Shown piece after piece: positions 1-13,564 of a stretch of 64,000 bases of DNA. The DNA lies in assembly GCF_015291705.1 (NCBI RefSeq), contig NZ_CP030050.1, forward strand, positions 1,860,001 through 1,924,000, given 5' to 3'. The notes below the pieces were generated by a model. That model was not told where the DNA came from, did no database searches, and worked only from the letters and a program-made list of their open reading frames with translations. Positions within the stretch are counted from its first letter, which is position 1. Each line of letters begins with the position of its first letter. The translations under genes were made by a program, and so were the position numbers. The DNA comes from Bradyrhizobium arachidis (GTDB lineage: Bacteria > Pseudomonadota > Alphaproteobacteria > Rhizobiales > Xanthobacteraceae).

Positions 1-870
1 GATGCAAAGAAGATCAATCCGCAGATCATCTATGCGGCTGCCTCCGGCTACGGTCCTGACGGGCCCTACGTCAACCGCCCAGGCCAGGATCTCTTGATCC
101 AGGCCCTATCAGGACTTGCGATGATCACCGGAAGTCGCGAGCAGGGGCCGCGGGCTGTGGGCGTTTCTGCCATTGATCATCACGGCGCCGCCTTGTTTGC
201 GGCGGGCATCCTGGCTGCCCTGGTGAGGAAAGCGCGCACGGGGCAGGGCTGCCGCGTCGATGTAAGCCTACTATCGGCTGCGCTCGACCTGCAGATGGAA
301 TCTTTTACCTGCTACTTGAACGGCCAAAGGCCTGACGACGTCCGTCAGCCGGGTCCGGTGGCGGGCTGGTACTACGGCGCGCCCTACGGCATCTACGCAA
401 CACGCGATGGACACATTGCAATCTCTTTGGGATCGCTGGAGGCGCTCTCAGACGCGCTTGGCCTTCCGGTCGACCAGCGAATTCCTGACGAGGAGGCTTA
501 TCGCCGGCGGGACGAGGCCTCAGCCATGATTGCGCCCAGTGTCGCCAAACGCACAACCACCGAATGCATCGCCTTGTTCGAGGCGCGCGGAATTTGGCAC
601 GCTGCGGTGAACGATTATGCCGACGTCGTTGCGGATCCGCAGATTGCGCACAACAGAAATTTCCAGGTCGTGACCGGCGCGACTGGAACTCCCATCACCC
701 TCGTCAGCCATCCCGTGCGCTACGACGGCGAGCAGCCGGACGTGCGTTTACCCCCGCAAAAGCTCGGTGCGCAAACGGAAGAGATTCTGAAAGAGCTGGG
801 CTATGACGCCAGGAAATTGAAGCATCTTTACGATATGGGCGCCATCGGGGCGGCGGACTCGCATCACTGA
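1..870 (+). CDS. Family III CoA transferase (CaiB/BaiF type), 3' part
   Basis: The reading frame is open from base 1, so the N-terminal part lies outside the window. The visible 289 residues contain the family signature GYGPDGPYVNRPGQDLLIQA and then ALSGL, followed by the domain-swapped second half with GAPYGIYATRDGHIAIS, typical of formyl-CoA/carnitine CoA transferases. Members move CoA between carboxylic acids through an aspartyl-CoA thioester; I cannot place the catalytic Asp with certainty in the visible part. The C-terminal tail (LPPQKLGAQTEEILKELGYD) is also typical. The substrate is unknown. It precedes a set of sugar-acid catabolic genes on the same strand, but a gap of about 250 bp separates them, so a shared operon is not shown. 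Confidence 0.85.
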   Translation, partial: DAKKINPQIIYAAASGYGPDGPYVNRPGQDLLIQALSGLAMITGSREQGPRAVGVSAIDHHGAALFAAGILAALVRKARTGQGCRVDVSLLSAALDLQMESFTCYLNGQRPDDVRQPGPVAGWYYGAPYGIYATRDGHIAISLGSLEALSDALGLPVDQRIPDEEAYRRRDEASAMIAPSVAKRTTTECIALFEARGIWHAAVNDYADVVADPQIAHNRNFQVVTGATGTPITLVSHPVRYDGEQPDVRLPPQKLGAQTEEILKELGYDARKLKHLYDMGAIGAADSHH

Positions 871-1119
871 ACGACCAAAGTGACTTCTCGAAAGTAGCGC
901 GCTTACGTCAGGAGGCATGGTGATCGGCATCAACTTGCGCGCGGCTTTCCCTGCGGTGTTGCTGACGAGGCGTGCTCCTCGGCAGCGATGCAACCTAGCG
1001 CACGCTTGGAAGTCTGGTGAACATTAACCGTTCACGCCGGGCCAGGACCTGTTGGTAAAGACTTTTCAGTTGCCGCCAGGCCAAAGCCGCGCGGCGAGTT
1101 TTATGTTGGACCAGAAGCC

Positions 1120-2271
1120 ATGACGGAACGCCAATATCTGCTCGCGCGCGAGCGTATGCTGAAGCGCATTGCCAAGACCAGGGACACTGCACGCTCGGGC
1201 TTGCCACACTGGGCCAGTGCTGCCGATGGAACATGGACGTATACGCCCGATGGTGATTGGACCGGCGGGGCCTTTGTCGGCGAGCTTTGGCTCGCGCATC
1301 TCGCTGATCCCAGGCAGTTCCCAATCGAAGACGCGCGTGCTGCGCTAAGCCGAATGTTGCCGCGTGCCGAGCGGCTTACGGCCTTCAAGGGTTTCGGCTT
1401 CTATCATGCTGGCGCCCTCGGCAGCATCCTGTTCGAGGACGAAAACGCGCGCGAGGTGGCTCTGACAGCTGCAAGGTCGCTTCGTGATATGTTCGATCCA
1501 CACCTCGGACTGATACCGTTGGGCAGGGATGCCGAGGAGGCGAGCGCAGTCGGAGCCTCCGAGAGCAGCATCGACTCCCTTCAGGCGACAGGCCTGCTCT
1601 ATTGGGCCGCGGAAGAGCTTTCCGATGCTCGGATGGAGGAGGTCGCCAATGCACATATGCGGCGTGTCCTCGAGATCCACGTACGGCAGGACAATTCAGT
1701 TATCCAGTCTTCCACCCTTGATCCACACACCGGCAAGGTGCTCAGAACGCACACGCATAAGGGATATAGCGATATCAGCACCTGGGGCCGGGCGCAGGGA
1801 TGGGCGATGCTCTACACGGCTCACGCCGCCATGGTCCGCCCGGACGAACCGCTATGGCGCGACTACGCCGTGCGCCTTCTTGACTGGTGGATCGATCATG
1901 TGCCTGCGGATCTCATTGCCTTCTGGGATTTCGACGATCCGGCGATCCCCAAAACCAGCAGGGATACTGCGGCCACTGCTATCGCTGCTGCCGCGGCGCT
2001 GCGCCTCGCATCCGCGCTTGGGCCTGAGCAGGGCGCCAAATATAGATTATTTGCGGAGCGCACAGTTAATCAGCTGATCTCGAAATACCTGACGCCGACT
2101 ACTCCCGATGACCCGCGCCCGCCTGGAATGCTCACCGGCGGCTGCTTCACCCGAAAGGCGATTGTGCGCGATATCGATGCAGCCCAGAACGTCGAGCTGA
2201 TTTTCGGAAGCTACTTCCTGTTTGAATGTCTTGCCATCCTCACCGACCTGGTGCCGCCTGGCTGGATTTAA
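1120..2271 (+). CDS. Glycoside hydrolase family 88 protein (unsaturated uronyl hydrolase)
   Basis: 383 residues, the usual length of GH88/GH105 unsaturated glucuronyl or rhamnogalacturonyl hydrolases, which hydrate the 4,5-double bond left by polysaccharide lyases and release a uronic acid. The GH88 signature is visible as W(T)GGAFVGELWLAH near residue 48 and as SSIDSLQATGLLYWAAEEL; Asp152 in ESSIDSLQ matches the essential Asp of this family. There is no signal peptide, so it should act in the cytoplasm on imported oligosaccharides. It is followed by a DHDPS-family lyase and an aldehyde dehydrogenase, which fits uronate degradation. Family assignment is strong; the exact sugar is not determined. 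Confidence 0.85.
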   Translation: MTERQYLLARERMLKRIAKTRDTARSGLPHWASAADGTWTYTPDGDWTGGAFVGELWLAHLADPRQFPIEDARAALSRMLPRAERLTAFKGFGFYHAGALGSILFEDENAREVALTAARSLRDMFDPHLGLIPLGRDAEEASAVGASESSIDSLQATGLLYWAAEELSDARMEEVANAHMRRVLEIHVRQDNSVIQSSTLDPHTGKVLRTHTHKGYSDISTWGRAQGWAMLYTAHAAMVRPDEPLWRDYAVRLLDWWIDHVPADLIAFWDFDDPAIPKTSRDTAATAIAAAAALRLASALGPEQGAKYRLFAERTVNQLISKYLTPTTPDDPRPPGMLTGGCFTRKAIVRDIDAAQNVELIFGSYFLFECLAILTDLVPPGWI

Positions 2272-2436
2272 TGAGGAGGCACGAACGGCGTCCAACGCGA
2301 GCAAAGCCTCGTTTGTGACGCCACGCCAGTCAATCTGTCAAAAAAGTGCGCCGGTATCGGCGCCACTCCTTAGATGTTGGCGATGGCTGACCCCCGTTCG
2401 ACAGCAAGTGACCGCCTCCTGTCTGGAATCCTCTAC

Positions 2437-3366
2437 ATGAGAAATGCGAAAACTCCCATCTATCGCGGCTTGTTCCCGGTCGCTCCAACGCCGTTCACGG
2501 AGGCTGGAGATCTCGATCTCCAAGGGCAGCGGCGCGTGCTGGATTGCATGATCGATCAAGGCGTGGACGGAATCTGCATTCTAGCCAACTATTCCGAGCA
2601 GTTCCTGCTGTCTGATCAAGAACGCAACATTCTAGTCGAGCTCTGTCTTTCGCATGTCGCGGGCCGCAAGCCAGTCATGGTGACCTGCAGCCATTTCAGC
2701 ACTCAGATTGCGGTGCAACGCGCCCGCTATGCGGCCGAACGTGGCGCAAGCCTCCTCATGCTGATGCCGCCTTATCATGGTGCAAGCCTCAAGGCGGATG
2801 ACGGGGCCATGATTGGTCATTTCGGCAGGGTCGCAGACGCGGCAGGGATTCCAATCATGGTCCAGGACGCGCCGCTCTCCGGCGTTACATTGACGGTCCC
2901 GTTTCTCGTCCGCCTCGCTTGTGAGGTGCCGCTCGCCCGATATTTCAAGATCGAGGTCCCGTTTGCTGCTGCCAAGTTGCGCAGTCTGATCGAGCTCGGC
3001 GGGGAGGCCATCATTGGTCCTTTTGACGGGGAGGAGGCCATCACCATGATGGCAGACCTCGACGCCGGTGCGACCGGAACGATGTCGAGTGCGCTGCTGC
3101 CCGATCTGCTTCGCCCGGTGCTCGATCACCACAAAGCGGGACGCAGGCAGGAAGCCGCTCTTGCCTATGCAAAGGTGCTCCCGCTCATCAATTTCGAGAA
3201 CCGCCAGTGCGGCCTGCGCGCTGCCAAGAGCGTCATGGCTGAAGGTGGTGTGATCAAATGCGAAGCGGTGCGGCATCCGCTCGATGGCCTCCATCCGGCG
3301 ACGAGAGCTGGATTGATCGAGCTTGCGCACGAGCTCAACCCGTTGGCTCTTCGCTGGGGACATTGA
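2437..3366 (+). CDS. DHDPS/N-acetylneuraminate lyase family protein, probable keto-deoxy sugar acid dehydratase or aldolase
   Basis: 310 residues from the ATG at 2437 (MRNAKTPIYRGLFPVAPTPF); an upstream in-frame ATG at 2374 would add 21 non-conserved residues, so I prefer 2437. The TIM-barrel family hallmarks are visible: FPVAPTPFTEAGDLD at the N-terminus, MPPYHG with a Tyr near residue 113, and Lys171 in ARYFKIEVP as the Schiff-base lysine. Family members include dihydrodipicolinate synthase, KDG dehydratases and L-2-keto-3-deoxyarabonate dehydratase. Lying between a GH88 hydrolase and an aldehyde dehydrogenase (4 bp upstream of it), it most likely converts a 2-keto-3-deoxy acid to a 2-oxoglutarate semialdehyde-type product rather than making lysine. 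That role is inference. Confidence 0.82.
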   Translation: MRNAKTPIYRGLFPVAPTPFTEAGDLDLQGQRRVLDCMIDQGVDGICILANYSEQFLLSDQERNILVELCLSHVAGRKPVMVTCSHFSTQIAVQRARYAAERGASLLMLMPPYHGASLKADDGAMIGHFGRVADAAGIPIMVQDAPLSGVTLTVPFLVRLACEVPLARYFKIEVPFAAAKLRSLIELGGEAIIGPFDGEEAITMMADLDAGATGTMSSALLPDLLRPVLDHHKAGRRQEAALAYAKVLPLINFENRQCGLRAAKSVMAEGGVIKCEAVRHPLDGLHPATRAGLIELAHELNPLALRWGH

Positions 3367-3369
3367 GGC

Positions 3370-4836
3370 ATGAACAATCCGGAACAAGCGGTGCAGGCAC
3401 AGCCTGTGTACCCCCAGATCAAGATGTTCATTGCCGGGGAATGGACGGAAGGGGAGGCGGAGCGCTCGGAAGAGATCCTCAACCCCGCGACCGGACAGCC
3501 CATTGGCGAAACGCCTTATGCGTCCCGCGGTGATCTTGATCGTGCCCTCGCGGCCGCCGCGGACGGCTTCGAGATCTGGCGAAAGGTTTCAGCCTTCGAC
3601 CGGTACAGGACCATGCGCAAGGCCGCCGAGCTCATACGCTCGCGCGCAGTGGGCATCGCTGCAATCATGACCCTCGAACAAGGTAAGCCGCTGAGCGAGT
3701 CGAGTGCCGAAACGCTCCTCGCTGCCGATATCATCGACTGGCTCGCCGAAGAAGGGCGGCGCGCTTATGGGCGGATCGTGCCGGCGCGCTTTGGCAATGT
3801 CGCCCAGCTCGTGACCAAGGAGCCGGTCGGGCCGGTTGCGGCATTTACGCCTTGGAATTTTCCGATCAAACCAGGCCGTGCGGAAGATTTCGGCGAGCCT
3901 TGCGGCCGGCTGCTCCATCATCGTCAAGGGACCTGAAGAGACGCCAGCGAGCTGCATGGAGTTGGTGCGTAGTTTCGCGGATGCGGGCTTGCCGGCGGGT
4001 GTGATCAATCTCGTCTTCGGCGTGCATCCGAAGTTTCAGATCATCTCATACGCCATCCTATCGTCCGTAAAGTCTCCTTCACCGGTTCGACCGTAGTCGG
4101 AAAGCATCTCGCAGCCCTTGCCGGCGCCCACATGAAGCGCGCCACCATGGAGCTCGGCGGGCACGCGCCTGCCATCGTTTTCCCAGATGCCGACGTCGAG
4201 AAAGCCGCAAGAATCTTGTCGGCGAACAAGTTCCGCAATGCCGGCCAAGTCTGCGTCTCGCCGACGCGGTTTCTGGTGCATGAGAGTGTCTATGAAGATT
4301 TCGTCAAGAGGTTTGTTGCCGAGGCCAGCGCGATCAAGGTTGGCAATGGCCTTGAGAGAGATAGCCGCATGGGACCGCTCGCCAATTCGCGGCGGGTCGA
4401 CGCAATGGAGAGCTTTGTCGCGGACGCTCTCGATTGCGGCGCCCAGTTGCGCGTCGGCGGCAAGCGTATCGGCAATGCGGGGTGCTTCTTCGCGCCGACG
4501 GTCCTGACCGATGTTCCACCTCGAGCGCGCATCATGAATGAAGAGCCGTTCGGCCCTGCCGCCCCGATTGCGCGGTTCAAAACCTATGACGACGTTGTCA
4601 CAGAGGCCAATCGACTGCCTTACGGGCTCGCCGCCTATGCCTACACGCGATCCGCCGCAACCATGGCCGCGATCGGGGCCGATCTCCAATGCGGGATGGT
4701 ATCGATCAATCATCATGGGCTTGGACTTCCCGAAGTGCCCTTCGGAGGAACGAAGGAGTCCGGCTTCGGCTCGGAAGGTGGCCTCGAGGCAATCGAGAGC
4801 TATCTCGACACCAAATTTGTGAGCCAGGCGAGCTAG
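3370..4836 (+). pseudogene. NAD(P)-dependent aldehyde dehydrogenase with two compensating frameshifts
   Basis: The whole aldehyde dehydrogenase is recognisable but in three pieces. Frame 1 runs from ATG 3370 to [10 protein letters not shown]; one extra base near 3868 then moves the rest to frame 2 ([20 protein letters not shown] to NLVFGV); a missing base near 4025 restores frame 1 ([20 protein letters not shown] to the end). Catalytic Glu (ELGGHAP, near 4150) and Cys (AGQVCVSPTR, near 4252) are both present. About 488 residues when repaired, the family length, most like succinate or 2-oxoglutarate semialdehyde dehydrogenases. It starts 4 bp after the DHDPS-family gene, so it probably oxidised that enzyme's product. 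Either a recent pseudogene or two sequence errors. Confidence 0.85.
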
Positions 4837-5119
4837 AACCGGAATACCAGGTGCCAAACCGGAGCAGAACGATTGTTCGACAGTGCCGCCGGATCGCCTC
4901 AAGCGCTTTTCCCCTTCTCCGCTGGCAGACCGGTACGTCTGCCTTCTCCCCAGACTTGAGCCGCTGTCGGAGAAATCCGGCAGCGGTTCTTTTTCTTTGC
5001 TGGAATGACAGCTTATTGTTCATTCAGGCAGGAGCAGAAGTAAGATACTTTGTCCGGAAAATCGGCGCGGACGGATAACAGCTGCGTCCAAAGCGCTCAA
5101 ACCTCCGCGCCAATGATAG

Positions 5120-5505
5120 CCCGCGAGCACTACGAAATTGGCGCGGCCCAGCATAACCATCGCCTGGAATTTATCGGGATGACCATCTCACGCGGATAAG
5201 CGCGCAGATGCGGAGCAGGAAGATCGTGGAGAACCGACAAGTCCATTTCGTAGACCCGGTTCGACCGCATCATCAAAGGCCATATCGATAACGATACGGG
5301 CCTTAGCGGAACAATGCGTCGGCGGTGATACGCAGTCCGCCATACTCGGTTTCCTCGCGAATGCGATTGACCTTGAGGCTATTTGGATCGAACTCCGCCC
5401 ATCGTTATGTGAAACGCCGCTGATTTCTTTGAAGATGCGGACCGTCTCGTCCTAATCATTGTTCTCGATGACGAGGGAGTCGAGGGGCACCACGGACTCG
5501 TGGAA
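5120..5505 (-). pseudogene. Remnant of AbiEii/AbiGii-type nucleotidyltransferase toxin gene
   Basis: Reading the minus strand downward from 5505, consecutive but frame-shifted pieces spell a nucleotidyltransferase of the AbiEii toxin family: LDSLVIENND, then ETVRIFKEISGV, EFDPNSLKVNRIREETEYGG, LRITADALF, KARIVIDMAFDDAVEPG, EMDLSVLHDLPAPHLRAYPR and KFQAMVMLGRAN. At least one in-frame stop and several frame changes separate them, so no product is made. Intact members are toxins of type IV abortive-infection pairs. No antitoxin partner was found beside it. The flanks (4837-5119) show nothing further that I can identify. Confidence 0.65.
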
Positions 5506-5536
5506 AAATGGCCCGCTTGGGAGCCATACCAAGCGT

Positions 5537-6439
5537 TTACGATAGGGCCAAATGTGGTAGGGTCAGTTCACCTTTGCCTGCGACAACTGAGAGGTTGAGT
5601 TCCTGTGCGGCAGCATCCAGGACCCGCACGGAAACGGCACTCTCGCGCGCTAGGCGCACAGCACACTCGATGTCCTTTGCAGCATTTGCAATCGAGATTG
5701 CCAGTGCATCCGGTTTCTCTCCCAACAAAAAAGCGGCGAAGGCTTGGAATATTCCACTGTTCGTAGAGCCCCGACTGACCAAAGACCGTAGTGTTACAAG
5801 ATCTATCTGAAGACTATCCGCGAATTGGCAGACCTCAGCGGCGACGGCAGCTATGCCCATAGTCATGCTGTTGTAAACAAGCTTGAGCTTGTGGCCGTGT
5901 CCGACATCTCCAACATGCGTCACGGTCTCGCAAAACGCAGCAAGAATGCGTTCAGCAACGGGAAAGAGTGTTGTATCCGATCCAACCATCGCATTGAGAA
6001 GGCCGAGCTCCGCTTGCTCGGGGCTTCGTGTTACGGGAGCATCAATAAAGCTTAGACCTCGTCTTTGCGCCTTTTTCGCCAATGCAATAGTCGAGGCGGG
6101 ATACGAGGTTGTACAATCAATTATCAAGCCTCCTCGTGACATGTGGACAAATAGTCCATCGTCATCAAGGCACACCATCTCAACTTCGCGGCTGGACGGT
6201 AAGGACAACACCACCACACTTACATGCTGCGCCAACTCAGCGATCGACGTATGTTCGCGGGCCCCTGCACTTATCAGGCGATCGGCACCGAACCGCTTTT
6301 TGTTGACTTTGATGTGGAGTTCGCGTTGCTGACGCAGCAGGCTGATGCCTATACCCGTTCCCATGCGCCCCGCTCCGATAAGCCCTACGCTCTGCTTGAT
6401 CAGTCTGGGAGTCGCGCTCGCTGATGGTCCCTTGCTCAT
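5537..6439 (-). CDS. Beta-hydroxyacid dehydrogenase family NAD(P)-dependent reductase
   Basis: 300 residues of the 3-hydroxyisobutyrate/6-phosphogluconate dehydrogenase type. The N-terminal Rossmann motif is GLIGAGRMGTG near residue 16; the substrate-binding motif is DAPVTRSPEQAELG; the catalytic motif GxGxxxKxxxN is intact as GHGHKLKLVYN, so the catalytic Lys is kept and an imine-reductase subtype is less likely. It is the third gene of an operon: its start lies 4 bp beyond the stop of the HAD phosphatase gene, which itself overlaps the PurF-like gene. It probably reduces or oxidises an intermediate made by the first two enzymes. Substrate unknown. Confidence 0.85.
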   Translation of the reverse strand: MSKGPSASATPRLIKQSVGLIGAGRMGTGIGISLLRQQRELHIKVNKKRFGADRLISAGAREHTSIAELAQHVSVVVLSLPSSREVEMVCLDDDGLFVHMSRGGLIIDCTTSYPASTIALAKKAQRRGLSFIDAPVTRSPEQAELGLLNAMVGSDTTLFPVAERILAAFCETVTHVGDVGHGHKLKLVYNSMTMGIAAVAAEVCQFADSLQIDLVTLRSLVSRGSTNSGIFQAFAAFLLGEKPDALAISIANAAKDIECAVRLARESAVSVRVLDAAAQELNLSVVAGKGELTLPHLALS

Positions 6440-6442
6440 GAC

Positions 6443-7123
6443 TTAGCATTCCGAAAAGTAGCCACGGCTTTGCAGGATGGGCGGCAGCTCGTGATGGTTG
6501 TTGATCGTGTAATCTGGACGCGCGGCTTGCAGGCGCGAGGTCGAAACAAATCCTCCGGTAATGGATATGCTTGTCAGGCCGAGATTATGTGCAATATCAG
6601 TCTCTACGGGCATATCGCCGATGATGAAGGTTGATGCGGGCTTCAGGTCGTACCGTTGCATATAAAGCCGAAGCCGCTCTCCTTTGCTCATCGATTTGTA
6701 TTGCGTGGCGCGGCTTTCAAAAGCGAGCACATCGGTGACGTAGTGATCTACTCCAAGCCTCCTCAGCTGGGACTGTAAAGGCGCGACTATGTGGTTGCTG
6801 AGGATGATGAGTAGAGCGGATTGTCGTCGCGCCATCTCGAGCACTCTGCGCGCCCCCTCACGTAGATCGGCCTTGTCCGCAAGAGGCTCGTATAAGTCGT
6901 GAAACAGTGCGCCATCGTCACGCTCCACTGCCTCAATCTCTTCGCGCGACATTCCAAGGCTAAGGTAGAGACGAGAGAGGGGAACATCACAACGATCCCG
7001 AAAGGTCTTTATATCGATGCTCGGACGACCAAAGCGATCCAAAATGACATTGGTCGTTTCGAGCAGCGCATAGGTGTCATCGAGCAGTGTTCCGTTCCAG
7101 TCAAATACGAGAGCGGGTTTCAT
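6443..7123 (-). CDS. HAD-family phosphatase
   Basis: 226 residues with all HAD motifs: motif I VFDWNGTLLDD at residues 6-16, motif II LIILSN near 113, a motif III Lys in the MSKGERLRLY region, and motif IV FIIGDMPVETDIA. In motif I the second Asp of the usual DxD is Asn (DWNGT), a variant found in some bacterial phosphoglycolate-phosphatase-like proteins. The start codon overlaps the stop of the PurF-like gene by 4 bases, implying translational coupling. In this operon it could dephosphorylate a phosphoribosyl intermediate; that is inference. Cytoplasmic, no signal peptide. Confidence 0.85.
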   Translation of the reverse strand: MKPALVFDWNGTLLDDTYALLETTNVILDRFGRPSIDIKTFRDRCDVPLSRLYLSLGMSREEIEAVERDDGALFHDLYEPLADKADLREGARRVLEMARRQSALLIILSNHIVAPLQSQLRRLGVDHYVTDVLAFESRATQYKSMSKGERLRLYMQRYDLKPASTFIIGDMPVETDIAHNLGLTSISITGGFVSTSRLQAARPDYTINNHHELPPILQSRGYFSEC

Positions 7124-8700
7124 GATCCTGACCTCAGGCGGGTATTGACAGGAAGAGCGGCCAGCAACGCTTCCAAGTGCCTACGCGCGCGCTGCCGTCC
7201 AGCGGGGGTCGGCATCTCGAACGTGAACGGTGACAGATCGATGCCCTCTAGCCTGGTGGCCAAAACGGATACAAGGGCGCGGAAAGGCAGATAAGTTATC
7301 GATGCCGCTTGGATCGCCGTCGCAATGTTGCTCTCAACGATTCTGAGCGCTGGCGGCTCCATCCTGTGGAAGCGAAGGCATTGGGCGCGCAGTTCGGACG
7401 GCAGCCGCTTCAATGCCTGCCAGAATGCGAGCTCATCTAGCGTATCAATACCCATGCCGTAGTAGTTTGGCGCAACTATAGGGGGAGAACCTATCGCCCA
7501 ATGTACGTCTTTGGCTCCAGCGGCAAGGAGCATCGTTGTAACGGCTTGGCTGGTATCGCCTCGAATGAGGGCTTCGTCGACAACTATTACAGTCCGTTCA
7601 GCTACGGCGGGTTCCGACACTCGATACTTCCGGGCAACGCGAGATTGCCGGGCGCTGGTTCTGCCGAGGAGCGTTCGCTCATGAAATTGCGTTGCCACTA
7701 CGTCACTACGCTCGGCAAGCACGCCCTGTTCGGCGAGAGAGTCAAATAGACCATCGGCGTACGGGCCCCCAGTATTTGGCATTGAGGACACGATTGGCGG
7801 CATCAAGAGTGGCTCTGCTTGAAGTCGCTCCGCAACGATTTTTCCCAAAGAGAGCCCGATGTCGTAACGGGTTTGGCGATGTGAATGGCCCTCGACCGAG
7901 GTGTTTGGACTTCCCAAATAGAGAGCTTCGTACGCGCAGAGCTTGGCCTTATGTCCTCGGCAGTTCAGGGCATGGTCAACGTTGGCCCCGGTCTTAGCAT
8001 CCACGCGCTGTATGCTCCCAGGCAAGAGCTGGCTGATCTCACCTTCCAAGCCTGCGAAGGCACAATTTTCAGAAGCAAAGAGCAACAAGCCATTACTTGC
8101 TCGCATAGTCTCCAATGGTCGCAAACCGCTTCGACTGCGGTATGCAACAAGATCTCCGTCCTTATCTAGCAAAAGCGCACTAAGGGCACCATCGATACGA
8201 TTATCAAGCTCGCGAAAGATAGCTTCGTAGTTTGCGGGCCGGCCGTGACGCCAATATTCTCGTTCGCAAGAGTGTTCAATCCACCTCAGCAAGAGCTCGG
8301 CGTCTGTATTCGTATCTGTAAGTTGGCCTCGAGCGAGTACTTCGCTCCTGAGTTCATGAGCGTTCACCAAGGCGCCGTCCAGAGCAATGGCAAAATGGCG
8401 GCTAGGAGTTGACTGCACGTCGTCGCCATCCCTAGCTCCACAGGATCCGCTACGGATCTGCGCGATTGCAACATGAGGCCGAAAGCACGGGTCCTGTTCG
8501 ATGCAGTCAATGCGCACCGAACCATCGTTCGATGGAAAGGCCCTTCCATACCGGAGTCCACGCTCTTGCATAAAAGCAGAGACGATGACGCCCGCTTGTC
8601 CACGGAGTGCAAGTGTCGGAATCATTTTGTTCAGCTGATCAACGACACGGGGCGATGGTTCGCTTGACGCGCAGAAAAATGCACCGGCGACACCGGACAT
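7120..8700 (-). CDS. PurF-like amidophosphoribosyltransferase paralogue with altered glutaminase site
   Basis: About 526 residues. N-terminal class II glutamine amidotransferase fold, then a phosphoribosyltransferase domain. PurF proteins begin Met-Cys-Gly, the Cys being the nucleophile; here the ATG at 8700 gives MSGVAGAFF, with Ser in its place. The oxyanion NGNL motif is DGALVNA, and HxRYST is IAQIRSGS; the acidic TNTDAELL is kept. The PRPP loop is recognisable as VIVVDEALIRGDTS, and GRTSARQSR and SPPIVAPNYYG are conserved. So the phosphoribosyl transfer fold survives while glutaminase activity is doubtful. A GTG at 8712 could add four residues, but the ATG aligns with PurF. First gene of a three-gene operon behind a sigma-54 promoter; not likely the housekeeping purF. 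Confidence 0.8.
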   Translation of the reverse strand: MSGVAGAFFCASSEPSPRVVDQLNKMIPTLALRGQAGVIVSAFMQERGLRYGRAFPSNDGSVRIDCIEQDPCFRPHVAIAQIRSGSCGARDGDDVQSTPSRHFAIALDGALVNAHELRSEVLARGQLTDTNTDAELLLRWIEHSCEREYWRHGRPANYEAIFRELDNRIDGALSALLLDKDGDLVAYRSRSGLRPLETMRASNGLLLFASENCAFAGLEGEISQLLPGSIQRVDAKTGANVDHALNCRGHKAKLCAYEALYLGSPNTSVEGHSHRQTRYDIGLSLGKIVAERLQAEPLLMPPIVSSMPNTGGPYADGLFDSLAEQGVLAERSDVVATQFHERTLLGRTSARQSRVARKYRVSEPAVAERTVIVVDEALIRGDTSQAVTTMLLAAGAKDVHWAIGSPPIVAPNYYGMGIDTLDELAFWQALKRLPSELRAQCLRFHRMEPPALRIVESNIATAIQAASITYLPFRALVSVLATRLEGIDLSPFTFEMPTPAGRQRARRHLEALLAALPVNTRLRSGS

Positions 8701-8767
8701 ATAGTTACCCACTTGTTAAGGAGTCGCTCTGGCGGGGGCGCCTCGATGACACGTCGCTTCATCCTTA

Positions 8768-8783
8768 AGCAAGCGTCGTACCA
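8768..8783 (-). promoter_or_regulatory. Sigma-54 (-24/-12) promoter of the PurF-like operon
   Basis: The minus strand reads TGGTACGACGCTTGCT, matching the RpoN consensus TGGCACG-N4-TTGCW with one mismatch; GG and GC are separated by exactly 10 bases as required. Expected transcription start near 8757, about 57 bases upstream of the ATG at 8700. A NifA-type activator site lies just over 100 bp further upstream. Confidence 0.8.
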
Positions 8784-8886
8784 GCGCTTTGCATATGCTA
8801 GCTGGCATTTCCGGAGCGAGTAGGGTTGGAAGACAGGCCATTCTAGCCATCGAGTGGTATTGTGCGTCGTTTAAGCACCCACGCGA

Positions 8887-8902
8887 TGTTCAGGATGCTA
8901 CA
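8887..8902. promoter_or_regulatory. NifA upstream activator sequence (TGT-N10-ACA)
   Basis: TGT at 8887-8889 and ACA at 8900-8902 are separated by exactly ten bases. The site lies about 105-115 bp upstream of the -24 element at 8783, the usual spacing for NifA acting through DNA looping. Either feature alone could be chance; together they strongly suggest nitrogen-fixation (low oxygen, symbiotic) control of the operon to the left. Confidence 0.72.
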
Positions 8903-10038
8903 ACCATGTGCGAAACGCTCCACACCTGAGCGAGCAGGAAGGGGGGCTTAAGGTCGACGAAAGGCTTCTGATCTTCCACTCATGTCTTTCATTTTTGCGT
9001 CCAGCCACCAAACCGGGTCTTTAAAGACAACCAGCCTAAGAAAAGGAGCTCAGAGAGGCCAGAGAGTGGCGTTCGACGCTGGCCTGATCAACTACTAACA
9101 GTGGTGATTGATCAGGACCATGAATCTTGGCCAGAGCGAATCGTGTCGCTTACGCGGACCAACGCATGACGATGCACCTTCAAACAGTTTGGTCAGAAGC
9201 TGCAATATGTCACCTTCGGCGGCTCTGTCGCGGCGCGCGCGGCCAAATTACTTGTGTCTGAAATCCTTCGAGCCCGAGGTGACTCAGGTATCCACGTGCT
9301 TGGCGGCAAAGCGCGGCTAGATCGGCGGCGCTGAAATAACAGGTGGGTAGGCGGATATACCAAGCCGCCATGATCCCGGATCCTGTACTGCCGAGTCTTA
9401 GCCATCGAGGCCATCCTCGTCCCGGTGTCTTCGCCCAACACAGAGGACGGTGCAACGATCAGGGGCTGTTCGCGACCTTGAACGAGACACCACTTAAAGA
9501 AGGAGCATCTGTTTGTTTTCTAAAAGTGCCGTCAATCCCAAAGCGGTGCAGACTAGCGCATCGGTGTTGCCGACACTCCCGGAATCTCGGCGCATGGCAC
9601 CTATGATACGCGCAGTCGCCACGATTCATAATGTCGTGCTAGCGCGAATGCCTAGGCGCTAGCTGAATTACGAAGCGCGTTCGTTTCACGGTGAGCCATT
9701 TCTGGCAGCGCGGCCATGATCTCGTGTCGGGCAGAGAATTTCGCTGAACTTGTTCGCTCGACCTCGCAGAAGGCATAAGGGGCCGCCGGTCGTGCGCATG
9801 GAAATCGTTGCTGTAGGCCCGAGTGCCTGGTCCGAAACCGAACGCGTTCGGTGTCACGAACCGGCCAAGCAGCCTCCAATCTCGACTTTAATCAGACAAT
9901 TGCCGGCGATTCCTCTGATTGGAACTGGCCCAGAGCGTGCATCGTGAAAGATGGGAGCCCATCTGAGTCTCGCAACATGACGGCAGTTGGGGGGGAGCGT
10001 TCAAATCGAGTGTATCTGACATTAGGTTCGGAGACTGT
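8903..10038. other. Long intergenic region between the divergent PurF-like operon and the carbamoyltransferase gene
   Basis: I see no convincing gene in this stretch. It holds an inverted repeat with 8-bp arms (CTGATCAA at 9084-9091, TTGATCAG at 9108-9115, 16-bp spacer), a perfect 16-bp palindrome ACCGAACGCGTTCGGT at 9837-9852, and a weaker -24/-12-like sequence TGGCCCAGAGCGTGCA at 9926-9941 in front of the carbamoyltransferase gene. No nod box was recognised. Confidence 0.5.
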
Positions 10039-11700
10039 ATGCGAATCTGCGGTATCAAACTGACTCATGATGGAGCAGTCGCCCTTGTCGAGGACGGAAG
10101 GCTGGTCTTTTGTGTGGAGCAGGAAAAGCGGGACAATAATCCGCGATATCAAAAACTCCACAATCTCGATGCGGTTGTTATCGCCTTGGCAGAACACGGT
10201 TTGGATCCGCGGGACGTTGACCGGTTCGTCATCGATGGATGGTGGGGCGAGAGTGAGTCACAATTTCAGGTTCTCAGCGGGACTGCATCCATTACCCTTA
10301 AAGGGGCGCCGTATGTTGAGGGCGATGCCGACGGCCTCCTCATAGCGCACGACGGCGCTGGGCTGATCCTCAAGGGAAGCGCCTTCCCTTATAAAAGCTA
10401 TCCGCATGTTACAGGTCATGTGGCTTCCGCTTATTGTACCAGTCCTTTCGCCAAGGCCGGGCAACCCGCGTTCTGTCTGGTTTGGGACGGCGCCTCCTTT
10501 CCACGGCTCTACCATGTAGAACGCCACGCAGCCAGGTTCGTCGAGTGCCTCTTTCCGCTGATCGGGCATGCTTATGCTGCCGCAGGCTATCACTTCGGAC
10601 CATACAAGCAGGCTAACCGGATCAAGTGGGACCTCGGTGTTGCGGGCAAGTTGATGGCCTACATTGCGCTCGGTTCGGTCGATGAAAGCATCGTCGAGGT
10701 GTTTCAGGAGCTCTATGAAAAGCACTTTAGCATGTTCACGGAGCCAGTCGGTCGTTGCAGCGAGGACGCCGCGCTTGAGCCTGTCCATGCGTTCTTCGAT
10801 GCCTGCGTGTTACGGTTAAAGGCCAAAGCCCCCGCAGATGTGCTTGCATCCTTTCATTGCTTTCAAGAGCGTCTGCTCGTTAGCAAACTGGCGAGTGCTG
10901 TACAGAGACATTCGAGGCTTCCCGCGCGCAATCTGTGCATAGTCGGTGGCTGCGGTCTCAACATAAAATGGAATAGTGCTCTACGAGCTGCCGGCTTGTT
11001 CGATGCTATCTGGGTGCCACCCTTTCCGAATGACAGTGGCTCGGCAATAGGTGCTGCTTGCTCCGCATTGGCGGCGGACCAAGGTTTTGTACCATTGGAA
11101 TGGTCCGTCTATAGTGGTCCAGCCGTGGAACGAGGCGACATGCCGCCCGGATGGGGCGGCTCACCATGCAGCATGCGTGAACTTGCAACCATCCTCGCCA
11201 GCAACAAACCCGTGATTTTTCTTGCCGGCCGCGCGGAGCTTGGACCTCGGGCTCTCGGTAGCAGAAGCATACTGGCCGCGGCGACATCGCCGCAAATGAA
11301 GGACCGTCTCAACGACATCAAACTTCGCGAGCACTTCCGGCCTGTAGCGCCAATATGCCTGGAGGATCGGGCGCCGGATATTTTTAATCCCGGAACGCCA
11401 GACCCTTACATGCTTTTCGAGCACCTAACACGAGCAGAATGGCGGGATAAGATCCCCGCTGTTGTGCATCTGGACGGATCTGCGCGATTGCAGACCATTT
11501 GCAGGACCTCTCGGCACAAGATCGCCGAACTTCTCGTCGAATACGAAGGCCTCACAGGCATTCCGCTACTATGTAACACCAGCGCCAATCACAATGGACG
11601 CGGTTTTTTCCCGAATGCGGCATCTGCCTGCCAGTGGAGCCGTGTTGACCACGTGTGGTGCGATGGCATGCTGTGGACGAGACGCGAGGGCGGCGACTGA
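10039..11700 (+). CDS. NodU/CmcH/TobZ-family O-carbamoyltransferase
   Basis: 553 residues, the length of rhizobial NodU and of antibiotic carbamoyltransferases. The N-terminal Kae1-like domain starts MRICGIKLTHDGAVALVEDG and holds the metal-binding HxxxH pair His123/His127 in PHVTGHVASAY; the C-terminal YrdC-like part follows, with the conserved GPRALGSRSI and HFRPVAP motifs. These enzymes transfer carbamoyl from carbamoyl phosphate via carbamoyl-AMP to a hydroxyl group of a sugar or secondary metabolite. NodU modifies Nod factor, but I see no nod box and no nodulation neighbours, and the closest genes encode a PurF-like operon read the other way. So the substrate may be Nod factor or another small molecule. 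A weak sigma-54-like site lies 98 bp upstream. Confidence 0.82.
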   Translation: MRICGIKLTHDGAVALVEDGRLVFCVEQEKRDNNPRYQKLHNLDAVVIALAEHGLDPRDVDRFVIDGWWGESESQFQVLSGTASITLKGAPYVEGDADGLLIAHDGAGLILKGSAFPYKSYPHVTGHVASAYCTSPFAKAGQPAFCLVWDGASFPRLYHVERHAARFVECLFPLIGHAYAAAGYHFGPYKQANRIKWDLGVAGKLMAYIALGSVDESIVEVFQELYEKHFSMFTEPVGRCSEDAALEPVHAFFDACVLRLKAKAPADVLASFHCFQERLLVSKLASAVQRHSRLPARNLCIVGGCGLNIKWNSALRAAGLFDAIWVPPFPNDSGSAIGAACSALAADQGFVPLEWSVYSGPAVERGDMPPGWGGSPCSMRELATILASNKPVIFLAGRAELGPRALGSRSILAAATSPQMKDRLNDIKLREHFRPVAPICLEDRAPDIFNPGTPDPYMLFEHLTRAEWRDKIPAVVHLDGSARLQTICRTSRHKIAELLVEYEGLTGIPLLCNTSANHNGRGFFPNAASACQWSRVDHVWCDGMLWTRREGGD

Positions 11701-11888
11701 GCGCTGGTCAACGGCATCTTTCTGTGGACGTGAGATTTGAAAACGGAACGCCGACCGTTCAGAGCCATTTTGGCGGCGGATAGTTCTCATCCAGCCCACG
11801 CAGACATCCCCAGGTATACCCTCTCTTTCCGAGGACCCCGATGACCGTGAACGGACCGCGGCGAATGTTGGACGTCTGAGCCGATAGA

Positions 11889-11984
11889 TGTCGTCGATCG
11901 GCGACGTTCGACGATGTCGGCGAAAGGTGACATTTTTGATTGTCAGCGAATGGCGACATATGTTAATGTAAGCGAACGCTGACA
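11889..11984. promoter_or_regulatory. Four HipB-type operators with 26-bp period
   Basis: Four 18-bp units with TGTC/GACA arms begin at 11889, 11915, 11941 and 11967, each exactly 26 bp after the last. Units: TGTCGTCGATCGGCGACG, TGTCGGCGAAAGGTGACA, TGTCAGCGAATGGCGACA, TGTAAGCGAACGCTGACA. The last ends 12 bp before the hipB start, so binding should cover the promoter. HipB proteins bind spaced palindromic operators in front of hipBA; autoregulation is inferred by analogy. Confidence 0.8.
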
Positions 11985-11996
11985 TTCGGGGTTCCC

Positions 11997-12284
11997 ATGC
12001 TTACACGTACCGCAGCCGATCTTGGCGCCGTCATCCGCGACCGGCGCAAACGCCTCAAGCTCGATCAGTCGACGCTGGCCAAAAAGGTTGGTGTCAGTCG
12101 CCAATGGCTCATTGAAGTCGAGCATGGACATCCGCGCGCAGAACTCGGGCTAATCCTCCGCGTCCTCGATGCTCTCGGCATTAAGCTCGATGCAGACAGC
12201 AATCCCTCCGCGGCCCGCGGCGTCCCGAAAACCGCCGTCGATCTGGACGCCATCGTGGCGAAAGCCAAAAAAGGCAAGCCTTAA
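11997..12284 (+). CDS. hipB: HipB-type antitoxin, XRE family DNA-binding protein
   Basis: 95 residues with a helix-turn-helix of the Cro/C1 type (IRDRRKRLKLDQSTLAKKVG, then VSRQWLIEVEHGHPRAELG, about residues 11-50) and a short Ala/Lys-rich tail. It is the DNA-binding antitoxin partner of the kinase encoded next; the stop and the next start overlap as TAATG. HipB represses the operon and neutralises HipA. Four regularly spaced operators end 12 bp upstream of its ATG. The ribosome-binding site is weak (GGGG just upstream). Confidence 0.88.
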   Translation: MLTRTAADLGAVIRDRRKRLKLDQSTLAKKVGVSRQWLIEVEHGHPRAELGLILRVLDALGIKLDADSNPSAARGVPKTAVDLDAIVAKAKKGKP

Positions 12285-13564
12285 TGGCCGAGCTCATTGC
12301 ACTCTTGGACGGCAACGAAGTCGGTCGTGTCCGAAGTGATGCACGCGGCCGGCTGACCTTTGTCTATGACAATGCATGGCGCAACGCTGAGGGAGCCTAT
12401 CCTCTCTCGCTTTCGATGCCGCTTGCCGCTGAGGAGCATGGTCCAGCCGCCATTCAGGCCTTCCTGTGGGGGCTGCTTCCCGCCAATGAGCAGGTGCTCG
12501 AGCGTTGGGCCATGAAATTTCAGGTATCAGCGCGCAACGTGTTTGCTCTCATCTCGAACGTCGGTCAGGATTGCGCAGGCGCCGTTCAGTTTGTCACGCC
12601 CGATCGACTGGAGGCCCTGAAAACGGGCCGAGATGACAAGATCGAATGGCTTGACGAGCCGGAAACAGCAAACCGGCTTCAAGCCTTACGAGAGGATCAT
12701 GCTGCCTGGCGTCTGCCCGGCGATACGGGTCAATTCAGCCTTGCGGGCGCCCAGCCTAAAACTGCTCTTGTCCTCAAAGACGGCAAATGGGGCATTCCGT
12801 CCGGCCGCATACCGACCACCCACATTTTGAAACCGCCGACAGGCCACTTCGATGGTCACGCCGAGAACGAGCATATCTGCCTGCGGCTCGCGCGAGAACT
12901 CGGGCTGCCGGCCGCTGAAACCAAGGTGATGCGCTTCGAAAAGGAAATCGCAATCGTCGTTGAACGCTACGACCGGCAAGTTAGTGGGAACGACATCATT
13001 CGGGTTCACCAGGAAGATATTTGCCAGGCCATGGGCATCCTGCCGACCAAGAAATACCAGAACGAGGGAGGACCAACGTCTGCTGACGTGATCGAGCTCT
13101 TACGGACATACTCGACGGACCGCGACGCTGACCTTGAGACGTTCGTCAGCGCTTTGGGCTTCAACTGGCTCATTGGCGGTTCCGACGCTCACGCCAAGAA
13201 CTATTCCTTGCTTTTGGCTAGCGGCCCGCACGTACGGCTTGCGCCGCTCTACGACATAGCTAGCATTCTTCCTTACGATCACGTCGACCCGCGGAAGGTT
13301 AAGCTCGCCATGAAAGTCGGGGGCGAGTACAAGCTCGACCAAATTGGCTTGCGTCAATGGCAGAAGTTCTCGCGCGAAACGCGGGCTGATGCGGATGTGG
13401 TCACTGCTACTCTTATCTCCATGGCTGGGCAGATCCCCGACCTCGTTAACGACACCCGCGCGCGCGCGCAAAAGGAGGGATTGGAGAACGCCGTTATCGA
13501 GCGATTGGCAGCGGCTTTGACCAAACGAGCTCAGGACTGCGAACGCGTTCTGAAGGGAACCTAA
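12284..13564 (+). CDS. hipA: HipA-type serine/threonine kinase toxin
   Basis: 426 residues, close to E. coli HipA. The N-terminal HipA domain contains YPLSLSMPL; the activation loop region is FSLAGAQPKTAL (near residue 150), which holds the family's autophosphorylated Ser position; the catalytic Asp301 is in GGSDAHAKNYS and the metal-binding Asp324 is in PLYDIAS. HipA phosphorylates glutamyl-tRNA synthetase in E. coli and causes growth arrest and persistence; the target here may differ. All key residues appear intact, so the toxin is probably active. It overlaps hipB by one base and ends just before a degenerate region. Confidence 0.9.
   Translation: MAELIALLDGNEVGRVRSDARGRLTFVYDNAWRNAEGAYPLSLSMPLAAEEHGPAAIQAFLWGLLPANEQVLERWAMKFQVSARNVFALISNVGQDCAGAVQFVTPDRLEALKTGRDDKIEWLDEPETANRLQALREDHAAWRLPGDTGQFSLAGAQPKTALVLKDGKWGIPSGRIPTTHILKPPTGHFDGHAENEHICLRLARELGLPAAETKVMRFEKEIAIVVERYDRQVSGNDIIRVHQEDICQAMGILPTKKYQNEGGPTSADVIELLRTYSTDRDADLETFVSALGFNWLIGGSDAHAKNYSLLLASGPHVRLAPLYDIASILPYDHVDPRKVKLAMKVGGEYKLDQIGLRQWQKFSRETRADADVVTATLISMAGQIPDLVNDTRARAQKEGLENAVIERLAAALTKRAQDCERVLKGT

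Follow-up and report, generated by a model that had tools for sequence, protein, structure and literature searches.

A PurF paralogue without the catalytic cysteine in a putative NifA/sigma-54-controlled operon of nodulating Bradyrhizobium

Introduction

Glutamine phosphoribosyl pyrophosphate (PRPP) amidotransferase, PurF (EC 2.4.2.14, TIGR01134), is the described enzyme to which we compare the first product of a small operon located in a 64,000-nucleotide stretch of the Bradyrhizobium arachidis genome (assembly GCF_015291705.1, contig NZ_CP030050.1, positions 1,860,001 to 1,924,000; this whole stretch is called the window below). The operon encodes the PurF-like protein, a haloacid dehalogenase (HAD)-superfamily hydrolase, and a beta-hydroxyacid dehydrogenase. 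The PurF-like protein shares the two-domain fold, the PRPP motif, and a near-full-length structural match with PurF, but it carries Ser in place of the catalytic Cys (Ala in Paraburkholderia phymatum) and mostly Asp in place of the oxyanion Asn, scores 132 bits where the family cut-off is 350, and has no purine genes seen beside it. A paralogue that has lost the catalytic cysteine and retained the PRPP motif is what is new here.

A Cys-less PurF paralogue alongside an intact PurF has also been described in archaea (PurF'), for which Brown et al. put forward ammonia-dependent activity as a proposal only (available text of PMC3261824). Unlike PurF', which according to the same text lies near purine genes in Crenarchaeota, the present paralogue is symbiotic, is paired with a HAD gene, and appears to be under control of the NifA/sigma-54 type. 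The NifA-sigma-54 regulon of rhizobia, as described for Mesorhizobium loti R7A (PMC3538637), resembles the operon in its -24/-12 promoters, its upstream TGT-N10-ACA-type sites, and its location in a symbiosis region. It differs in that imperfect tandem sites predominate here, and the main text of that paper, as far as available, does not mention amidotransferase, amidophosphoribosyl, phosphoribosyl, hydroxyisobutyrate, or haloacid. A described relative is Bphy_7471 of P. phymatum ("glutamine amidotransferase class-II"), which is 37% identical, located on a symbiotic plasmid, NifA-dependent in nodules, and interpreted as a glutamine-using enzyme in the available text of PMC8305402. In contrast to the operon of the window, Bphy_7471 is truncated, with neither a HAD or dehydrogenase gene nearby nor a recognisable promoter.

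Results

A PurF paralogue that has lost the glutaminase nucleophile

A first-pass annotation of the window had described the protein as a PurF paralogue within a phosphoribosyl-amine-type enzyme set; the PurF fold and the PRPP motif agree with a PurF paralogue, and the annotation overlooked the loss of the glutaminase nucleophile. With 132.1 bits against TIGR01134, the protein falls below the family threshold, and its best solved relatives are the PurF enzymes of a plant, Bacillus subtilis, and Escherichia coli. The predicted model (mean predicted local distance difference test score, 80.7) matched these three over nearly its full length, with template modelling (TM) scores of 0.66–0.72 normalised by the query; its 17 best solved matches were all PurF chains, and it appears to adopt the full-length two-domain fold of PurF.

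Among 73 family proteins examined, 54 reach the nucleophile position, with Ser in 53, Pro in one, and Cys in none. The single Pro belongs to a protein (P0002) whose first residues differ from those of its relatives, and the P. phymatum homologue has Ala. The oxyanion Asn is replaced by Asp in 58 of the 70 proteins covering it and kept in 11; the glutaminase Arg is present in 49 of 66 and replaced in 17, and the glutaminase Gly and Asp are kept in 69 and 67 of 70, respectively. For the roles of these residues, we assume the E. coli positions Arg73, Asn101, Gly102, and Asp127. The PRPP motif is intact in every covering protein (70/70 for both the D-E acid pair and G-D-T-S). In the region that we take to be the flexible loop, Arg is found in 71 of 71 and Thr in 70 of 71 proteins, a pair to which we presumptively assign the flexible-loop role.

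The genome's housekeeping purF lies elsewhere and encodes the catalytic Cys; pairwise, the PurF-like protein is 27% identical to its product. Among ten close loci, the median ratio of nonsynonymous to synonymous substitution rates (dN/dS) was 0.36 for the N-domain and 0.24 for the rest of the protein, by which both halves are under purifying selection, the phosphoribosyltransferase (PRT) half more strongly. Loss of the glutaminase nucleophile argues against an ordinary amidotransferase. According to the available text of PMC3261824, substitution of Ser or Ala for the Cys of E. coli PurF abolishes the use of glutamine, and the enzyme still works with ammonia. Judged by its residues, the PurF-like protein is rather likely to be a glutamine-independent PRPP transferase. 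Members of the family are recorded as hypothetical protein, purine enzyme, or glutamine amidotransferase; the last label, including the published reading of Bphy_7471, is probably wrong about glutamine.

Promoter and upstream activator sites

The first-pass annotation had placed a TGT-N10-ACA site and a near-consensus -24/-12 promoter, correctly spaced, in front of the operon. Both were recovered on the minus strand (Table 1), the former by pattern scan and the latter with one mismatch, and the start of the NifA-type site lies 119 bp upstream of the -24 element. No other site in the window comes within one mismatch of TGGCACG-N4-TTGCW. Motif counts from the window alone prove little, as neither motif is above chance: TGT-N10-ACA was found seven times against 6.2 expected, and -24/-12 elements with at most two mismatches 11 times against 12.0 expected. 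It is conservation among relatives, rather than these counts, that makes the case for the promoter.

Scanning of genomes yielded 48 loci; nine of them (eight distant PurF-type matches and L048, a 27-residue match) were removed before counting. The remaining 39 carry the true family (38 in Bradyrhizobium and one in Rhizobium; L015 and L038 share one contig) and make up, with the window, 40 loci, several of them near-duplicates and so not 40 independent cases. A -24/-12 element, defined by at least 10 of 12 consensus matches within 250 bp upstream, was present in 40 of 40 loci, compared with a mean of 0.37 and a maximum of two in dinucleotide shuffles. In 11 of the 40 loci, an exact TGT-N10-ACA site lies 30–180 bp further upstream (shuffle mean 1.05, maximum five), and 36 have the imperfect form [TC]GT-N10-AC[AG] in the same zone (shuffle mean 6.1, maximum 12). 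Tandem pairs of imperfect sites spaced by 18–20 bp occur in 26 loci against 0.015 in shuffles (at most one). Because the pair pattern was picked after the alignment had been viewed, and because the loci share ancestry to the point of near-identity in some cases, comparison with shuffles makes the evidence look stronger than it is. Conservation of the exact NifA site is poor, with CGT instead in 13 of the closest 15 loci, the window among them. L034 and L037 depart from the usual arrangement, their exact sites lying between promoter and gene.

In relatives, the PurF-like gene recurs behind a -24/-12 promoter, for which the first-pass annotation had proposed to look, and the exact NifA site that it had paired with the promoter mostly does not recur. 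Ordinary sigma-70 promoters together with purine neighbours were not seen in relatives, sigma-70-like sites having been scanned in the window only. The inferred NifA/sigma-54 control has the support of the promoter in all 40 loci, and nodC in most carriers (see below) speaks for NifA; we consider such control well supported and highly probable from sequence.

As a genome-wide yardstick, TGGYACG-N4-TTGCW occurs 22 times in the 9.87-Mb genome, compared with three times for the reversed pattern. Half of these sites (11/22) fall inside one 560-kb stretch, bounded by its own first and last -24/-12 site and equal to 5.7% of the genome, which contains nifH, the operon of the window, and nodC. An exact NifA site 30–180 bp upstream accompanies five of the 22, all within this symbiosis stretch, and none of the 11 outside it. 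The first long genes after those five are nifH, an electron transfer flavoprotein (ETF)-beta/FixA-type gene, the PurF-like operon, a pentapeptide-repeat gene, and one whose product weakly matches a GFA domain.

Two further promoter regions of the genome deserve record. At G000:C1:1788690 (L083:2691-5705), the exact NifA and -24/-12 arrangement lies upstream of genes for a pentapeptide-repeat protein and a PanC-like protein, with an apparent P450 gene, judged by eye, close by. At G000:C1:2092770 (L082:4271-5306), a -24/-12 element and a tandem imperfect NifA-type pair, 19 bp apart, precede an ornithine cyclodeaminase-family gene.

Operon structure and the two partner enzymes

The order and coupling of the three genes noted in the first-pass annotation are seen in the window, where the open reading frames (ORFs) span 5537-8712 on the minus strand with a 4-base overlap between the PurF-like and HAD genes and a 3-base gap before the dehydrogenase gene. 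As a three-gene unit, the operon holds less well across relatives: the dehydrogenase gene is approximately full length and directly downstream in only 26 of 40 loci, and the core therefore consists of the PurF-like and HAD genes. The PurF-like protein more likely starts at the ATG at 8700 (MSGVAG) than at 8712, because most aligned relatives are annotated from there. Terminator-like hairpins numbered five in the region scanned against 4.7 expected, and Rfam families had no match in window 4000-12500.

Table 1. Features of the operon and its upstream region in the window.
Feature	Position	Strand	Remarks
NifA-type upstream activator site 1, TGT-N10-ACA, TGTAGCATCCTGAACA	8887..8902	minus	Pattern scan; exact match
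Imperfect NifA-type site 2, CGTGGGTGCTTAAACG	8868..8883	minus	19 bp downstream of site 1; alignment of loci
Sigma-54 -24/-12 promoter, TGGTACGACGCTTGCT	8768..8783	minus	One mismatch to TGGCACG-N4-TTGCW
PurF-like paralogue	7120..8712	minus	Likely start ATG at 8700; Ser replaces catalytic Cys; PRPP motif VDEALIRGDTS; model resembles PurF structures
HAD-superfamily hydrolase	6443..7123	minus	Motif I DWNGT
Beta-hydroxyacid dehydrogenase	5537..6439	minus	NAD_binding_2/NAD_binding_11 domains; DAPVTRSP motif
Terminator-like hairpin	5514..5535	minus	Directly 3' of the dehydrogenase stop; position is the sole argument

The HAD gene directly follows the PurF-like gene in 39 of 40 loci, although L019 has only a fragment of it; the exception is L016, where it lies upstream on the other strand. 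Motif I reads DWNGT in 39 of 39 sequences, so that the second Asp of DxD is Asn, whereas motif II Ser/Thr, motif III Lys, and motif IV Gly-Asp are each present in 39 of 39. DWNGT also occurs in 35 of the last 37 among the HAD matches listed, most of them 36–44% identical and four of them Bradyrhizobium fragments, and is therefore a subfamily trait. The earlier label "HAD phosphatase" is uncertain because of motif I. A relative of the HAD protein alone was found in a Mesorhizobium. The identification of a beta-hydroxyacid dehydrogenase was confirmed by its NAD_binding_2 and NAD_binding_11 domains, by the GxGxxG Gly residues (26/26), and by the catalytic Lys (24/26, Gln in two); the Arg of DAPVTRSP is invariant (26/26). 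With median dN/dS among the ten close loci of 0.23 (HAD) and 0.20 (dehydrogenase), both proteins are under purifying selection.

An additional arrangement was noticed at L016:6296-7879, where HAD and dehydrogenase genes, each 89% identical to those of the window, lie upstream of, and on the opposite strand to, a PurF-like gene without a HAD gene of its own.

Distribution and link to nodulation

Among 265 genomes of the genus, the PurF-like gene was detected in 68, nifH in 159, and nodC in 135. It is present in 66 of the 135 nodC genomes, in two of 28 with nifH and without nodC (G183 and G187), and in none of the 102 with neither; 66 of 68 carriers thus have nodC (Fisher p 1e-21, relatedness ignored). 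Three carriers without a nifH match (G036, G107, and G132) are drafts of 140–1000 contigs. For the 25 carriers assembled into three contigs or fewer, the gene lies on the nodC contig at a median distance of 252 kb; the largest distance, 692 kb, is a linear measure on the circular G149 plasmid, and elsewhere it is at most 492 kb. Ten Bradyrhizobium plasmid records carry the gene (one broken), as does pBPHY02 of P. phymatum. Two copies about 35 kb apart on one replicon are found in L015/L038, G045, G047, G048, G147, G148, G149, and G264, the two-copy replicons being from Bradyrhizobium zhengyangense and, among plasmid records, peanut isolates.

In a 5.8-billion-protein collection, the named family members among the matches listed are from Bradyrhizobium and Rhizobium; the first match listed at less than 40% identity is a generic PurF at 26%. 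This search scored the 7996 candidates with the most shared words and missed the P. phymatum protein, so the list is incomplete. Profile searching extended the family by just two fragments (P0073 and P0074) and gave no outgroup pathway. An order-wide search of 397 genomes found the family in two, that of the window and one other of the genus; this sample is thin and missed the Rhizobium carriers found in the other searches. The association of the operon with nodulating strains and their symbiosis regions is supported by these gene patterns.

Published expression data

By locus tag, Bphy_7471 (BPHY_RS40825) is the pBPHY02 homologue found here. In Table 1 of PMC8305402, its log2 fold change in nodules of a nifA mutant relative to the wild type is -5.75, alongside -5.89 for nifE and -5.35 for nifX. 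No HAD or dehydrogenase match was found in the 25 kb around it. Downstream of the truncated gene (L057:16683-19364) are a GHMP kinase gene and a gene for an SbnA-like pyridoxal phosphate (PLP) enzyme, both NifA-dependent according to the available text of PMC8305402. Beyond the Bphy_7471 passages of that paper, no description of the operon was found in the available open-licence literature (supplements excluded, here and below); word searches of the available texts of PMC5979394, PMC5748707, PMC9927569, and PMC3538637 gave nothing on it, and that of PMC12419801 holds one unrelated mention.

Neighbouring genes

Apart from the HAD and dehydrogenase genes, the commonest neighbours are a LacI-type regulator at a distance of about 9 kb (21/40) and a CoA transferase (19/40), followed by a 383-aa protein without a Pfam match (15/40), an aldehyde dehydrogenase (13/40), and NodU (12/40), counts that reflect a crude ORF choice, unequal flank lengths, and single-linkage clusters. 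Rarer clusters are dihydrodipicolinate synthase (DHDPS)-like, ABC ATPase, enoyl-CoA hydratase, and aminotransferase. No purine gene is among the annotated neighbour clusters, which are part of all clusters. In the window's clade, the operon adjoins a convergent block (94-4836 in the window) of a CoA transferase, the 383-aa protein, a DHDPS-like protein, and a split aldehyde dehydrogenase, which is pseudogene-like and occupies two frames (188 and 234 aa) at 3370-4836; the LacI-type regulator lies further on in relatives.

A rhizopine link through the DHDPS-like gene (2374-3366), which we took to be mosA-like, was dropped, since the convergent block is found in nine of 40 loci, or at most 16 if seven loci are added where the ORF picker chose the opposite strand, and in no other clade. 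A link to nodU was likewise set aside: it lies no more than 10 kb away in 12 of 40 loci (some flanks are short) and so belongs to the neighbourhood of part of the loci, and no nod-box-like pattern was found near it. Separately, a HipB/Y4mF-type antitoxin and a HipA-like toxin form a pair at window 11997-13564.

Discussion

Gene layout, promoter, upstream activator sequence (UAS)-type sites, nodulation linkage, Cys loss, the retained PRPP motif, and purifying selection can all be read from the DNA. As a whole, they are best explained, at not quite an even chance, by a NifA/sigma-54-controlled bacteroid operon with an ammonia- or amine-using PRPP transferase. In bacteroids of nodulating rhizobia, NifA would activate the operon and sigma-54 RNA polymerase would transcribe it. 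The PurF-derived transferase, with glutamine no longer the donor, would place free ammonia, which would be abundant while nitrogenase works, or another small amine onto the ribose-5-phosphate of PRPP. Action of the HAD enzyme on the phosphate would follow, and the NAD(P)-dependent dehydrogenase, where present, would add a redox step leading to a small nodule-specific metabolite. We infer the binding of NifA, the donor, the order of these steps, and the product; ammonia is the simplest guess for the donor, and the lead enzyme probably makes a nodule-specific compound. In its narrowest form, a rhizobium-specific PRPP aminotransferase, induced by NifA together with nitrogenase, would use nitrogenase-derived ammonia to feed an undescribed ribosylamine-derived metabolite, which we regard as doubtful. 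The first-pass annotation had suggested a symbiosis-specific small molecule rather than purine synthesis. A role other than ordinary purine synthesis stands, because a housekeeping purF with Cys is present elsewhere and no purine gene is among the annotated neighbours; the small molecule is a conjecture of ours as much as of that annotation.

Several points weigh against the bacteroid PRPP transferase operon. PRPP and ammonia are presumed substrates. The tested zone holds no exact UAS in 29 of 40 loci and no UAS-like site at all in four, HAD motif I is without the usual acid/base Asp, and several lineages lack the dehydrogenase or carry a decayed one; what is left of it in L021, L025, and L032 suggests loss in some of them, and short contigs leave some cases ambiguous. 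Some PurF-like copies are themselves decayed (four internal stops in L046, a broken copy in L059, an internal stop in G145 and G192, and partial copies in G061, G190, and the second copy of G112). The P. phymatum copy ends before the PRPP motif and has neither a -24/-12 element nor a UAS-type site in the 600 bp upstream of it, and its NifA dependence may therefore be indirect. Word searches of two papers on rpoN in P. phymatum (main texts) gave nothing on Bphy_7471, and expression data for a Bradyrhizobium copy were not found in the open-licence literature.

Other explanations were weighed against it. An ordinary purF duplication is ruled out by the loss of Cys, the 27% identity to the genome's own PurF, and the lack of a purine gene among the annotated neighbours. 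The same points, apart from the Cys, speak against a bacteroid isoform that would let ordinary purine synthesis run on ammonia under glutamine shortage, into which the HAD enzyme and the dehydrogenase do not fit either; the kept PurF fold and PRPP motif and the ammonia-dependent activity of Cys-less E. coli PurF (available text of PMC3261824) would agree with such an isoform, which we consider improbable. The operon could also be NifA-controlled with a specific organic amine or another compound as the acceptor, yielding an N-ribosyl natural product that serves the partners as a signal or nutrient. The glutaminase half, altered by the loss of Cys and by Asn-to-Asp replacement in 58 of 70 proteins yet under purifying selection, may bind something else, and here the poor fit of HAD enzyme and dehydrogenase to purine synthesis counts in favour. 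The invariant dehydrogenase Arg (26/26), in a substrate motif that we presume to be like that of sulfolactaldehyde reductase, would suit an anionic substrate. Across clades, no acceptor or further biosynthetic gene is linked to the operon, and an organic-amine acceptor seems unlikely.

That the PurF-like protein is not an enzyme, and instead serves the HAD enzyme as a sensor or scaffold, would account for the several lost glutaminase residues and for HAD as the most constant partner (39/40 loci, one a fragment). The PRPP-motif acids (70/70), the flexible-loop Arg (71/71) and Thr (70/71), and the stronger constraint on the PRT half than on the N-domain make this role quite improbable. As for the regulator, an enhancer-binding protein other than NifA might act at the sigma-54 promoter, in line with the presence of an exact NifA site in no more than 11 of 40 loci and with the 11 -24/-12 sites outside the symbiosis stretch that have none, so that other activators work in this genome. 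Set against the UAS-like pair in 26 of 40 loci, nodC in 66 of 68 carriers, and the NifA dependence of the P. phymatum homologue (available text of PMC8305402), another activator is very improbable.

The operon occurs in about half of the nodC-bearing Bradyrhizobium genomes examined (66/135). If it encodes a NifA-driven pathway, it indicates a nodule metabolite of which no report was found in the open-licence literature. If the bacteroid PRPP transferase uses ammonia as proposed, biosynthesis inside bacteroids would draw directly on newly fixed ammonia.

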